Notes under the pieces: generated by a model | Seen by the model: only the letters and a program-made list of their open reading frames with translations | What the model was told of the DNA's origin: nothing | Database searches by the model: none | Assembly (NCBI RefSeq): GCF_017565425.1 | Contig: NZ_JAGEMK010000002.1 | Span: 496,001-560,000 of the forward strand | Direction: 5' to 3' | DNA length: 64,000 bases | DNA from: Actinotalea soli | Lineage (GTDB): Bacteria > Actinomycetota > Actinomycetes > Actinomycetales > Cellulomonadaceae | Made by a program: the position numbers and the translations under genes | Shown here: positions 2,350 to 45,070 of the stretch, one piece after another | Layout: the number at the start of each line of letters is the position of its first letter | Position numbering within the stretch: position 1 is the stretch's first letter

Positions 2350-2376
2350 TCAATTTATCCCGGGACGTGCCGATGC
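2350..2376 (+). promoter_or_regulatory. Sigma-28 (FliA/WhiG)-like promoter
   Basis: TCAA (2350-2353), 15 bases, then GCCGATGC (2369-2376). This follows the TAAA-N15-GCCGATAA consensus of FliA/WhiG-type sigma factors with mismatches in both boxes. Transcription would start near 2383, exactly where the GTG start of the downstream EAL gene lies. Confidence 0.5.
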
Positions 2377-2382
2377 ATACCT

Positions 2383-4125
2383 GTGACCACCCCATGCGAC
2401 GTGCTCGACCTGCCGGCCGACGTCGAGGACCTCGTGGCCTCCCTGCTCCACCCGGGAGGTATCCGGACGGTCTTCCAGCCCGTGGTGCGCGTGGCCGACG
2501 GCGTGATCATCGGCTACGAGGCGCTCTCCCGGTCGACCACGATGCCCCACCTGTCGCCCGCTGCCTGGCTCGAGGCGGCCGACGCCGTCGGACGGCGCCT
2601 GGAGGTCGAGCTGGCCTGCATGGCTGCGGTGTCCGACGCGGGGGACCCGCCGGACCGTGCGCTGATCTTCCTCAACGCCAGCCCCGACGTCGCGGTGGAC
2701 CCGCGCTTCGCCGAGCTCTGCGGCGCCCTGCCCCGGCACGTCATCGAGGTCACCGAGCACGTCGCCGTCGAGGACTACGAGCCGCTCCTCGAGGGCCTGC
2801 GTGCGCTGCGGGCGGGCGGGTCCCTGGTCGCCGTCGACGACGTCGGTGCCGGCTACGCGTCGATGTCCCACGTGCTGCAGCTGAGCCCCTCCTTCATCAA
2901 GCTCGACCGCTCCCTGGTCAGCGGCCTCGACGGGGATCCCCGACGTCGGGCCCTGGTCGAGGCCCTGCAGGCCTTCGCCGCGGCGAGCGGCGCCCTCACC
3001 ATCGCCGAGGGCGTCGAGACCGAGGCCGAGCTGCGCGCCCTGAGCGCCGCGGGGATCGACCTCGTCCAGGGCTACCTCCTGGCCCGGCCGCAGGAGCCGT
3101 GGGTCGAGGTCAGCGCCCAGGCCCGCAACGTCCTCCTCCCCGAGCCGGGTGCGCCCGAGGCCCTCGAGCCCGAGCAGCTCGCGGCGGCCCTCGACGGCGC
3201 GCGGACGCCCACCGAGGCGTGCGAGCTGGTCAGCCGGTACCTCTCGCACCAGGGCGGTCTGCTGCCCAGCGTCTACCTCGAGCGCGGCGGCGTGCTGCGC
3301 TGCCAGTCGCGGCGTGGTCAGTGGCTCGTCATGGACGGGCTCCGTCCCGGCGCGGGCATCAGCGGCACGGCCTTCGCCGAGGGGTGCGAGATCCTGTCGA
3401 CCGACGTCGCGAGCGACCCGCGGTACCGCCTGGCCGTCCCCGGGGTGAGCAGCGAGATGGCCGTGCCGCTCACCGTGGCGGGCCGGGTGGTAGGGGTGCT
3501 GAACGTCGACGCCCTCGCGCCGATCCTGCCCCGGCACGTCGAGGTGGTGCGCCTGTGCGGCAGGTTGCTCGAGGCACGGCTCGAGGAGCTCGACGCCTCG
3601 GGCTCGCCCAGCGCGATCCTGCACGACCTGAGCCGCCTGATGCCGACCCTCGCCGTCGCCGGGTCCGCCGAGGCCCTGGTCGACGCGACCCTCGCGGCGG
3701 TGGCCGAGCTGACCGGCTTCGACGCCGGGTGCGTGTGGAGCTTCGACGACGACGGCGCCCTCGACGTGGCCGGGACGATCGGCGACGGGGCTGCCGGGCT
3801 CACCGGCCTGCCCGACGCGCAGGTGCTCGCCCTGCGGGACCTCGTGGCCGACCTGGCCTCCTGCTACAGCGGCGGGACCGACCTGAGCCTGGCCGTGCCG
3901 CCGACCCACGTGCTGCGCGAGCGCGGGGCGCGGGGCGTGGTGCTCGTGCCGATCAGGGACGGCTGGGACCTCACCGACATGCTGGTGCTGACCAGCGGAG
4001 CGCGGTCCTTCGTGGCCCCCGACGTCGTGGACGCGGTCGAGGCCCTGTGCCTGCAGGCGGGAAGCCGGCTCGCGGCGCTGCGCCGGGTGGCCGAGCTCGA
4101 GGACCTGCTGGCCGCTCAGCGCTAG
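2383..4125 (+). CDS. EAL domain c-di-GMP phosphodiesterase with two GAF domains
   Basis: A 580-residue cytosolic protein with no membrane segment. Residues about 15-250 form an EAL domain that hydrolyses cyclic di-GMP to pGpG. The catalytic set looks intact: EAL at residues 46-48, the NASP Asn, VIEVTE, the VDDVGAGY loop, KLDR, AEGVETEAE and QGYLLARP. Residues about 265-400 and 405-575 each look like a GAF sensor, the second more diverged. There is no GGDEF domain. The GTG start has no ribosome site, but a sigma-28-like promoter sits just upstream, suggesting a leaderless transcript and a link to motility. It converges with the YciO-type gene with only 7 bases between them. Ligands of the GAF domains are unknown. 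Confidence 0.9.
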   Translation: MTTPCDVLDLPADVEDLVASLLHPGGIRTVFQPVVRVADGVIIGYEALSRSTTMPHLSPAAWLEAADAVGRRLEVELACMAAVSDAGDPPDRALIFLNASPDVAVDPRFAELCGALPRHVIEVTEHVAVEDYEPLLEGLRALRAGGSLVAVDDVGAGYASMSHVLQLSPSFIKLDRSLVSGLDGDPRRRALVEALQAFAAASGALTIAEGVETEAELRALSAAGIDLVQGYLLARPQEPWVEVSAQARNVLLPEPGAPEALEPEQLAAALDGARTPTEACELVSRYLSHQGGLLPSVYLERGGVLRCQSRRGQWLVMDGLRPGAGISGTAFAEGCEILSTDVASDPRYRLAVPGVSSEMAVPLTVAGRVVGVLNVDALAPILPRHVEVVRLCGRLLEARLEELDASGSPSAILHDLSRLMPTLAVAGSAEALVDATLAAVAELTGFDAGCVWSFDDDGALDVAGTIGDGAAGLTGLPDAQVLALRDLVADLASCYSGGTDLSLAVPPTHVLRERGARGVVLVPIRDGWDLTDMLVLTSGARSFVAPDVVDAVEALCLQAGSRLAALRRVAELEDLLAAQR

Positions 4126-42358: not shown

Positions 42359-45070
42359 ATGGCGATCGGGCGCAGGCAGGGTCGCCTCGTCGCGCCCGCC
42401 CCTCGGGCCGCTCCGGTGGTCGAGACCGTCGAGACCTCCCACGGTTCGCGCCTGACCCGGTGGGTGCTGGGCTTCGGTCCCGTCGTGATGGTGCTCCTCG
42501 GGGCGGCGGTCTTCCTGCTCGCCTACGTCGCGGTGAGCCTCGCCCCGGTGGACAACCGGGTGGCCGCGTGGTGGCCGGCCGCGGGGCTGTCGGTGCTCGC
42601 GGTGGCGTGGGCCCCTCGTCGGCGACGGCTCGGTGTCGTGCTGACGGTCGCCGTCGCGAGCGGCGTCGCCAACGCCGTGGCCGGGCGCGAGTGGCCGGTC
42701 GCCCTGGGCTTCGGCCTGTCGAACGCGCTCGAGGCCTGGGTGGTCGCGGCATGGCTGCTGCGCGGTCGCGCGCGACCTCGACTGATGACCCTCGAGGACG
42801 TCTTCCGGCTGATGACGGGCACCCTGCTGGGCGGCCTCGTCATGGGTCTCGGTGCAGCGGCCACCGTCGCGATCCTGGCCGACGGCGATCCCTGGATCAC
42901 GGCCCGCACGGTCATGGCGAGCCATGGCGCGGCGATCCTGGTGACCGTTCCCCTCGGGCTGCGGGTGCTGACCCCGCGGGCGGCGGGCAGCCGGGCCGAG
43001 GGACTGGTGCAGTGGGTGGCCCTGCTCGGGGTCTCCGCGCTGATCTTCCGTCCCGACCAGGCCCTGCCCGTCACGTTCCTGACGATGCCCTTCCTCGTGT
43101 GGGGCGCCCTGCGGCTGGGTACCCGCACGGTGACCATCCAACTCGTGGTCCTCGCCGTGCTCGTCAGCGTCCTCAACCGCTTCGGCGGGGGGCCGTTCGC
43201 GTGGAACCTGGGGGGCGGGGCGACCGTGACCGCCTCGTTGGTCCAGGCGTACCTGGTGGTCTCGGCCCTCGTGGTGCTGCCCCTCGCGGTGTCGGTGGCC
43301 CAGCGGCGCGCCGTGCTGCAGCGGGTCGAGGCCAGCGAACGGCTGTTCCGCGAGGGGTTCTCCGAGGCGCTGCTCGGCATGCTGCTGCTGCGCCGGACGA
43401 GCGAGGACCTGCACCTCCCGGCGCCCCGGACGGCGGGACGGCCGCACGCGACCGACGGCCTCGAGGTGGTCGAGCTCAACGCCGTCTCCGCGCGGATCCT
43501 CGGGGGGACCGAGCCGGAGCTGGTGGGGGAGTCGTGGACCGCGCGGCTCGAGGCCGGGGACCGGACCGTGGTGGCCGACGCCGTCCGGGAGATGCACGCG
43601 GGCAACCTCCCCGGGTGGCACGGCGAGGTCGCGCTCGGCGTCGAGACCAGCACCCGCTGGGTCGAGGTCGCCCTGTCCCCGCTCACGGATGCCAACGGCG
43701 AGGGCATGTTCGTCGGCCAGATGGTCGACGTCACGGCACGGCGGGCCGCCGAGGAGCGGCTGACGGCCCAGGCCCTGCAGGACGGCCTCACCGGGCTGGG
43801 CAACCGCACCCTGCTGCGTGACCGGATCGACCTCGCCCTGCGGACCCTCCCCGCGGACGGCTCGGGGGCCGTGCTGCTCTACTGCGACCTCGACGACTTC
43901 AAGCACGTCAACGACTCCACGGGGCATCCCGGCGGGGACTCGGTGCTCGTCGAGGTCGCGGAGCGGCTCACCTCCCTGCTGCGGCCCGAGGACGTCGCGG
44001 CGCGGCTCGGCGGGGACGAGTTCGTCGTCCTGCGGCCGCAGGTCGGGACCCCGGCCGAGGCCGAGGAGCTCGCGACGGCCGTGCTCGACGCCCTGATGGC
44101 CCCCGTGCACGTCGGCGGCCACTCCTTCAGCCTCGGTGTGAGCATCGGCATCGCCTGGGGCGTGACGGGGACCTCCCCCGACGACCTGCTCCGTGACGCC
44201 GACTCGGCGATGTACGCGGCCAAGGCCGAGGGCAAGCGACGGGTGGTGGTGTTCTCCGACGAGCACCGGGCCCGGGTGCTCCGGGCCGTCCGGGTCGAGA
44301 AGGAGCTGCGGGCCGCCCTCGAGCGGGAGGAGCTCGAGGTCTACCTGCAGCCCGTGATCGAGCTCGACAACGGTCTCCCGGTCGCCGCCGAGGCCCTCGT
44401 GCGGTGGAACCACCCCGAGCGCGGCCTGCTCGCCCCGGGGGAGTGGCTCGACGTCGCCGAGAGCTCGGGACTGATGCCGCGCATCGGGGCGTGGGTCCTC
44501 GAGCGGTCCTGCACCGAGGCCGCGACCTGGCCCACGCTGTGCGACGGCGCGGCCCCTGCGGTGCACGTCAACGTCTCGGCCCGGCAGCTCGACGAGCCGG
44601 GGTTCGTCGACGAGGTGCGTCGCGTGCTGACCGAGACGGGGCTGGCCCCCGAGCGTCTGGTGCTCGAGTTCACCGAGACCTACCTCGACGAGGTCAGCGA
44701 CACCCTGCTGGCCGACCTCGCCGGCCTGCGCCGAGCGGGTATCGGCCTCGCGGCGGACGACTACGGCACCGGGTACAGCCCGTTGACCCGGGTGATCGAG
44801 CTGCCCCTGTCGATGGTCAAGATCGACCGCGGCTTCGTCAGCACCATGCTCGAGGACGTCCGCAGCCGCGCGATCGTCACGACCCTGCTGCGGCTCAGCG
44901 AGGCGCTGGGCCTGGACCTGGTGGCCGAGGGCGTCGAGACCCAGGCCCAGGCGGACGAGCTCAAGCGGCTGGGGTGCCAGGCCGGCCAGGGGTACCTGTG
45001 GTCGCGGCCGGTCCCGGCCGAGCAGTTCCGCGCCGAGCTGTCCGCGTCGATCAGCCCAGGGTCTCGGTGA
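42359..45070 (+). CDS. MASE1-PAS-GGDEF-EAL cyclic di-GMP enzyme
   Basis: A 903-residue membrane protein. About eight helices (residues 35-325) with [14 protein letters not shown] form a MASE1 sensor; a PAS-like domain follows (about 330-465). The GGDEF domain keeps RLGGDEF (551-555) and can make c-di-GMP; the EAL domain keeps AEALVRW (EAL 678-680), [17 protein letters not shown] and AEGVETQAQ and can degrade it. Both halves appear intact, so the sensor presumably decides the balance. The ATG at 42359 follows GAGGGAGGG. The 3' end overlaps the convergent phosphoglucomutase gene by 20 bases. Confidence 0.95.

Follow-up and report, generated by a model that had tools for sequence, protein, structure and literature searches.

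A predicted sigma-28-type promoter at the start codon of a putative c-di-GMP phosphodiesterase gene in Actinotalea soli, with similar sites at flagellar and other c-di-GMP genes

Introduction

Is the gene for a putative cyclic di-GMP (c-di-GMP) phosphodiesterase in Actinotalea soli read from a promoter of the flagellar type, and does its mRNA begin at the start codon itself? The question is raised by a stretch of 64,000 nucleotides (positions 496,001 to 560,000 of contig NZ_JAGEMK010000002.1, C22 in our numbering), hereafter called the window, in which a sequence-only reading had proposed that a FliA/WhiG-like promoter feeds a leaderless EAL-GAF-GAF gene. Positions given without a contig are those of the window. 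The features concerned are the following.

2350..2353, + strand: -35 element TCAA, as read from the sequence; TCA is also found in fliC sites of relatives and in the flagellar promoters of this genome
2354..2368, + strand: spacer of 15 nt (16 nt in more distant orthologues, by eye)
2369..2376, + strand: -10 element GCCGATGC, as read from the sequence
2383..2385, + strand: start codon GTG, at which transcription is predicted to begin; the mRNA would be leaderless
2383..4125, + strand: predicted EAL-GAF-GAF c-di-GMP phosphodiesterase gene, 580 aa (Pfam)
2446..3090, + strand: EAL domain, residues 22-236 (Pfam)
3217..3579, + strand: first GAF domain, residues 279-399 (Pfam)

The phosphodiesterase gene and the site before it

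The 580-aa protein matches the Pfam families EAL (2.8e-42) and, in two stretches, GAF (2.7e-11), and its EAL domain resembles EAL enzymes of known structure, MucR among them (5m1t, E 4e-19). Residues E46, N98, E125, D152, D153, K173, E209, E212 and Q229, which we take to be the catalytic and metal positions, are all present and invariant in five aligned sequences, the window included. Domain and residues together mark the protein as an EAL-type enzyme, predicted to hydrolyse c-di-GMP.

From 2348 to 2385 the window reads GGTCAATTTATCCCGGGACGTGCCGATGCATACCTGTG, with six bases separating GCCGATGC from the GTG. The sigma-28 consensus quoted in a passage of PMC8325347 consists of a -35 element TAAA and a -10 element GCCGATAA. 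TCAA is one base off TAAA, the spacing is 15 nt, and GCCGAT is exact, with GC instead of AA as the final two bases, so that the likeness of TCAA-N15-GCCGATGC to FliA/WhiG promoters claimed in the sequence-only reading is confirmed at 2350-2376. Exact matches to TMAA-N15-GCCGAT number one in the window and 12 in the genome, where the reversed control gives none. With at most one mismatch, eight matches occur in the window vs 1.64 expected from shuffles, an excess that may be due in part to codon usage.

For scoring, a matrix was trained on the best consensus matches in 27 fliC upstream regions of relatives; the 27 were drawn from 30 loci, leaving out the fliC of this genome, that of the 95% relative and a locus in which no start was recognised. 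Of these fliC sites, 24 of 27 carry TCA, 19 carry NCCGAT and 26 have the 15-nt spacing. The FliA motif of Actinoplanes missouriensis is reportedly CTCA-N15-17-GCCGAA. The site in the window scores 13.97, low in the range spanned by the training sites (12.8-22.0), and GG stands before TCAA where the matrix expects CC. Eight of 128,000 window positions, the site included, score at least as high, which makes it the eighth best and means that the motif by itself is no proof of a promoter. More than chance is indicated by its position, since the start codon that follows lacks a Shine-Dalgarno sequence, by its conservation in orthologues and by the recurrence of the motif at flagellar genes and at further c-di-GMP genes of the genome. 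Since the fliC matrix does not single the site out, conservation and genome-wide enrichment were used in its stead to reject chance as the sole explanation.

Conservation upstream of orthologues

Orthologues share 95, 70, 70, 68 and 67% identity with the protein, two more (L030 and L031) share 51-53%, and a copy from a metagenome-assembled genome (MAG) shares 73% over its C-terminal part; the loci that could be named belong to Actinotalea sp. C106, Actinotalea sp. K2, A. subterranea and an Actinomycetes MAG. MAFFT was used to align seven upstream regions (window, G005, G006, G002, G003, G030 and L084), and CGT..CGATG and the GTG are invariant in all of them. By eye, the orthologue upstreams follow TCA[AT]-N15/16-[GA][CA]CGATG, with the GTG 6-7 nt beyond the octamer. 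Conservation as codons was considered and rejected: counted from an upstream GTG the distance to the start GTG is 16 or 17, and counted from an ATG it is 10 or 11, and a block whose distance to the start varies by one base is not conserved as codons. The alignment paired an ATCA upstream in the window, not TCAA, with TCA[AT] of the orthologues, so the homology of the -35 element depends on spacing.

Upstream of the five distant orthologues the best matrix sites reach scores of just 4-9, and for G006 and L084 a different site was picked; the fliC matrix is a poor fit for 16-nt spacers and for -10 elements like GACGAT or ACCGAT. No motif was found by regular expression upstream of the most distant relatives, L030 and L031, in a search that also missed three accepted sites. 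The CGT directly before the -10 element (2366-2376 in the window) is invariant in the orthologue promoters and missing from most flagellar promoters. Two orthologues, L027 (G003:C31:291583-292014) and L026 (G030:C2:1880951-1881400), carry an extra C-terminal GGDEF domain in open frames of 739 and 746 aa; this domain, missing from the 580-aa window gene, was either gained or lost.

Similar sites at flagellar and c-di-GMP genes

A flagellar/chemotaxis cluster occupies C22:251.7-307 kb, on the same contig and 190-245 kb from the target gene. Its gene names come mostly from reading translations, the flagellin-type genes, the sigma factors, an HDOD protein and a few others having been checked with profiles; the flagellin-family matches are 3.1e-46 and 9.7e-22. 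TCA[TC]-N15-GCCGAT stands upstream of fliC, flgB, fliM and several receptor genes, and a search for the motif at flagellar genes, proposed earlier as a check, was thus positive.

Across the genome, TCAH-N15-GCCGAT has 74 matches (39 forward, 35 reverse) vs 2 for the reversed pattern. According to a crude GC3-based gene caller, 41 of the 74 lie inside genes and 33 outside, two having been swapped by hand (C22:261825 in, C26:312080 out). Among these 33 upstream sites, 13 precede c-di-GMP-type genes spread across the contigs, including one for an HDOD protein that matches EAL weakly; 11 precede genes read as flagellar or chemotaxis genes, and nine precede other genes or nothing clear.

The genome holds 27 GGDEF and 20 EAL matches, giving 33 c-di-GMP genes, one of which (C22:252403) is counted for an HDOD protein whose EAL match is below the cut-off. 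A score of at least 14 within about 300 bp upstream was found for 17 of the 33 vs 1 of 145 controls (Fisher p 8e-14), where 22 of the c-di-GMP genes were scored by scanning -300 to +40 of the called start and 11 at a strict-pattern match. The target, at 13.97, counts through rounding only, and the comparison gives 16 of 32 (p 4e-13) without it. Support for the earlier claim that this phosphodiesterase is tied to the motility regulon comes from the motif being shared by flagellar genes and further c-di-GMP genes.

The other 16 c-di-GMP genes score below 14. One GGDEF-EAL gene lies within the window itself (about 42416-45010; on C22, GGDEF at 539772 and EAL at 540300), and its best upstream score is 3.0, indicating that the set excludes some c-di-GMP genes. 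Two EAL genes that do have sigma-28-type sites, C11:215598 and C30:56922 (L192 and L193), show, on inspection by eye, altered catalytic motifs, C30:56922 having KGIE in place of EGVE for instance, and may therefore encode inactive sensors.

Similar enrichment was seen in other genomes. G033, of another genus in the same family, has sites at 8 of 20 sampled GGDEF genes vs 1 of 36 neighbours, and G003 at 9 of 20 vs 1 of 38; each sample covers 20 of 38 GGDEF matches, and some regions overlap, so that neighbours may be counted twice or be c-di-GMP genes themselves.

Start codon and leaderless transcription

The best match to GGAGG before the GTG at 2383 is three of five bases, in agreement with the proposal that this start has no ribosome site, and a Shine-Dalgarno match was absent from all seven upstream regions examined (window and six related). 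After GCCGAT, the first in-frame start follows at 8 nt in the target gene and at 9 nt in six of the 33 upstream sites (one EAL gene, three GGDEF genes, a fliM-type gene and one unassigned gene). The remaining sites have it at 4-7 nt (six), at 28-57 nt (14) or nowhere within 60 nt (six). Some of the close starts are probably not used, since fliC has a start at 7 nt but the homologous start farther on, and at C32:160787 another start, preceded by GGAGG, lies at 39 nt. The clustering at 8-9 nt is suggestive, as a fixed transcription start at that place could produce it. The orthologues, and certain other genes with like spacing, are consistent with a leaderless start. Leaderless genes are reported to be extensive in Mycobacterium tuberculosis (PMC3898074).

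Candidate sigma factors and alternative readings

It is probable that a sigma-28-type promoter precedes the window gene, that transcription starts at or beside the GTG and that a leaderless phosphodiesterase mRNA would be made when the flagellar sigma factor is active, within a genome-wide regulon. An absence of FliA and WhiG homologues, named earlier as one of two cases that would tell against such a promoter, is not what the genome presents, as it holds both a WhiG equivalog and a divergent FliA-like factor. The FliA-like gene, C22:256741-257610, adjoins fliC; its best match is TIGR02479 (FliA_WhiG) at 167 bits, below the cut-off of 189.6, and the product is a predicted divergent FliA. The WhiG equivalog, C26:20163-21035, matches NF004935 with 362.5 bits (cut-off 343), and its neighbours are read as xerC and dprA. 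A search for RsiG with the strict published motif gave 6 DNA matches vs 12 in the control, no two of them close together, and the one match that was followed lies inside a gene read as secA.

A second reading, which we regard as rather unlikely, accepts the promoter as real and has it read mainly by WhiG, so that the c-di-GMP genes would be part of a WhiG programme like the one proposed for Rubrobacter. The equivalog above its cut-off speaks for it, as do the promoter specificity common to WhiG and flagellar sigma factors and the CGT before the -10 element, which the target promoters keep and most flagellar promoters lack. Predicted WhiG promoters with mapped starts before five diguanylate cyclase or phosphodiesterase genes of Rubrobacter, described in a passage of PMC8325347, point in the same direction. 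Genomes that have only one of the two factors argue against it. Among 59 genomes, that of A. soli included, five flagellates have no WhiG-class match over the cut-off (G021, G032, G035, G048 and G052), and three genomes (G019, G022 and G051) have WhiG with neither flagellin nor a second comparably strong FliA-class match. Without WhiG, G021 and G035 together still keep sites at 6 of 12 GGDEF genes vs 3 of 36 neighbours (p 0.004), one of the six (L245) being a matrix-scored site without TCA. A regular expression for TCA-N15/16/17-GCCGAT-type sites also found 6 of 12 in these two genomes, a different six from the matrix set. In two of the three WhiG-only genomes, G019 and G022, none of the three scorable GGDEF genes has a site, which is a very small sample. 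Sites in flagellates without WhiG make FliA the likelier factor; judged by these site counts, FliA seems to suffice for the promoter pattern, to which WhiG could add.

GGDEF counts in 13 genomes are 27, 38, 38 and 47 where both factors are present, but 10 in G017, which has both and no flagellin match; they are 0-8 with FliA only, 1-3 with WhiG only and 0-1 with neither. G017 belongs to the same genus, and its two sigma-28-class factors are encoded at C6:368231 and C3:299446; its flagellin is either lost or missed. Raw motif counts in 12 genomes range from 18 to 88 each and reach 63-70 in three genomes without either sigma-28 factor, so raw counts cannot separate the classes.

A chance match of the motif, with the gene read from an undetected housekeeping promoter, is very improbable. 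Its score is indeed not unique in the window, but the spacing to the start codon is conserved in orthologues, c-di-GMP genes are enriched for such sites throughout the genome, and a simple consensus scan of 2150-2500 found no sigma-70-type promoter. It is likewise very improbable that the conserved CGT..CGATG serves chiefly as a regulator site or as an ECF-type -10 element instead of a sigma-28 one. Its CGT is invariant in the seven upstreams and missing from most flagellar promoters, and GGAAATCA is common to three of the seven; against this, the window, G005, G002 and G003 lack GGAAATCA, and the window site matches the sigma-28 spacing exactly.

The proposed regulon and known systems

Under the preferred reading of a sigma-28-type promoter, such promoters would precede the flagellar operons, the chemoreceptors and about half of the genes that make or break c-di-GMP, and activity of the sigma factor during flagellar assembly would lead to production of the EAL-GAF-GAF enzyme. 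FliA rather than WhiG would be the main factor. The enzyme may be active, lowering c-di-GMP globally or locally in cells that build flagella and thereby favouring swimming, and its GAF domains may sense a signal. Because cyclase genes share the promoter type, one may guess that the regulon sets up local or signal-tuned c-di-GMP pools and not a plain lowering.

Several known systems resemble parts of this scheme. YhjH (PdeH) of Escherichia coli is described, in the passages on it in PMC3634460, as a sigma-F-dependent phosphodiesterase that holds c-di-GMP down and thereby prevents YcgR from inhibiting the motor. Like YhjH, the protein studied here is predicted to be a c-di-GMP phosphodiesterase under a flagellar sigma factor; unlike it, it has the EAL-GAF-GAF arrangement, a predicted leaderless transcript and an actinobacterial host in which cyclase genes have the same promoter type. 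BifA of Pseudomonas putida is a phosphodiesterase that favours swimming and is partly controlled by FliA, as supported by 5' RACE and promoter mutation (PMC5300878). It shares with the window gene, as predicted here, a FliA-type promoter feeding a phosphodiesterase, yet BifA is a single gene that also has a sigma-70 promoter, whereas about half of the c-di-GMP genes are concerned here and the scan at the target showed no sigma-70-type site. In the actinobacterium Rubrobacter, sigma-28-class promoters, of the WhiG type, also stand before c-di-GMP genes, five of them encoding diguanylate cyclases or phosphodiesterases, with a possible feedback loop (PMC8325347, in the passages on these genes). 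That system, as those passages present it, comprises type IV pili, WhiG and RsiG, in contrast to the flagellar genes and separate FliA found here, where no strict-motif RsiG was found.

Flagellated Actinobacteria carry more GGDEF genes and c-di-GMP enzymes, as stated in PMC10746217. The present genomes likewise show flagella going with large c-di-GMP networks; that survey gives counts, in a main text without the word "promoter", whereas a regulatory link is suggested by the present data. In PMC13232838, which deals with Streptomyces RmdB and WhiG, nothing about WhiG targets was found, and no report of a sigma-28 regulon that takes in about half of the c-di-GMP genes of a flagellated actinobacterium was found in the open-licence literature. 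FliA-driven phosphodiesterases and WhiG-type promoters at c-di-GMP genes are known; what seems new is the scale in a flagellated actinobacterium.

More broadly, we lean slightly toward the view that about half of the c-di-GMP network in the flagellates of this order has come under the flagellar sigma factor, cyclases and phosphodiesterases alike and some of them leaderless, and that the network grows and shrinks with that sigma factor. If this is true, a network tracking the flagellar sigma factor would explain the GGDEF excess in flagellated Actinobacteria. The shared sigma-28 promoter type would provide a testable regulatory reason, as swimming cells would make their own c-di-GMP makers and breakers, and the window gene would serve as a simple reporter for the regulon. 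TCAAG-type sites also stand before genes for a VanY-like carboxypeptidase and a beta-propeller-repeat protein (C31:40877, L016, and C22:378233, L011), which are possible non-motility members of the regulon.
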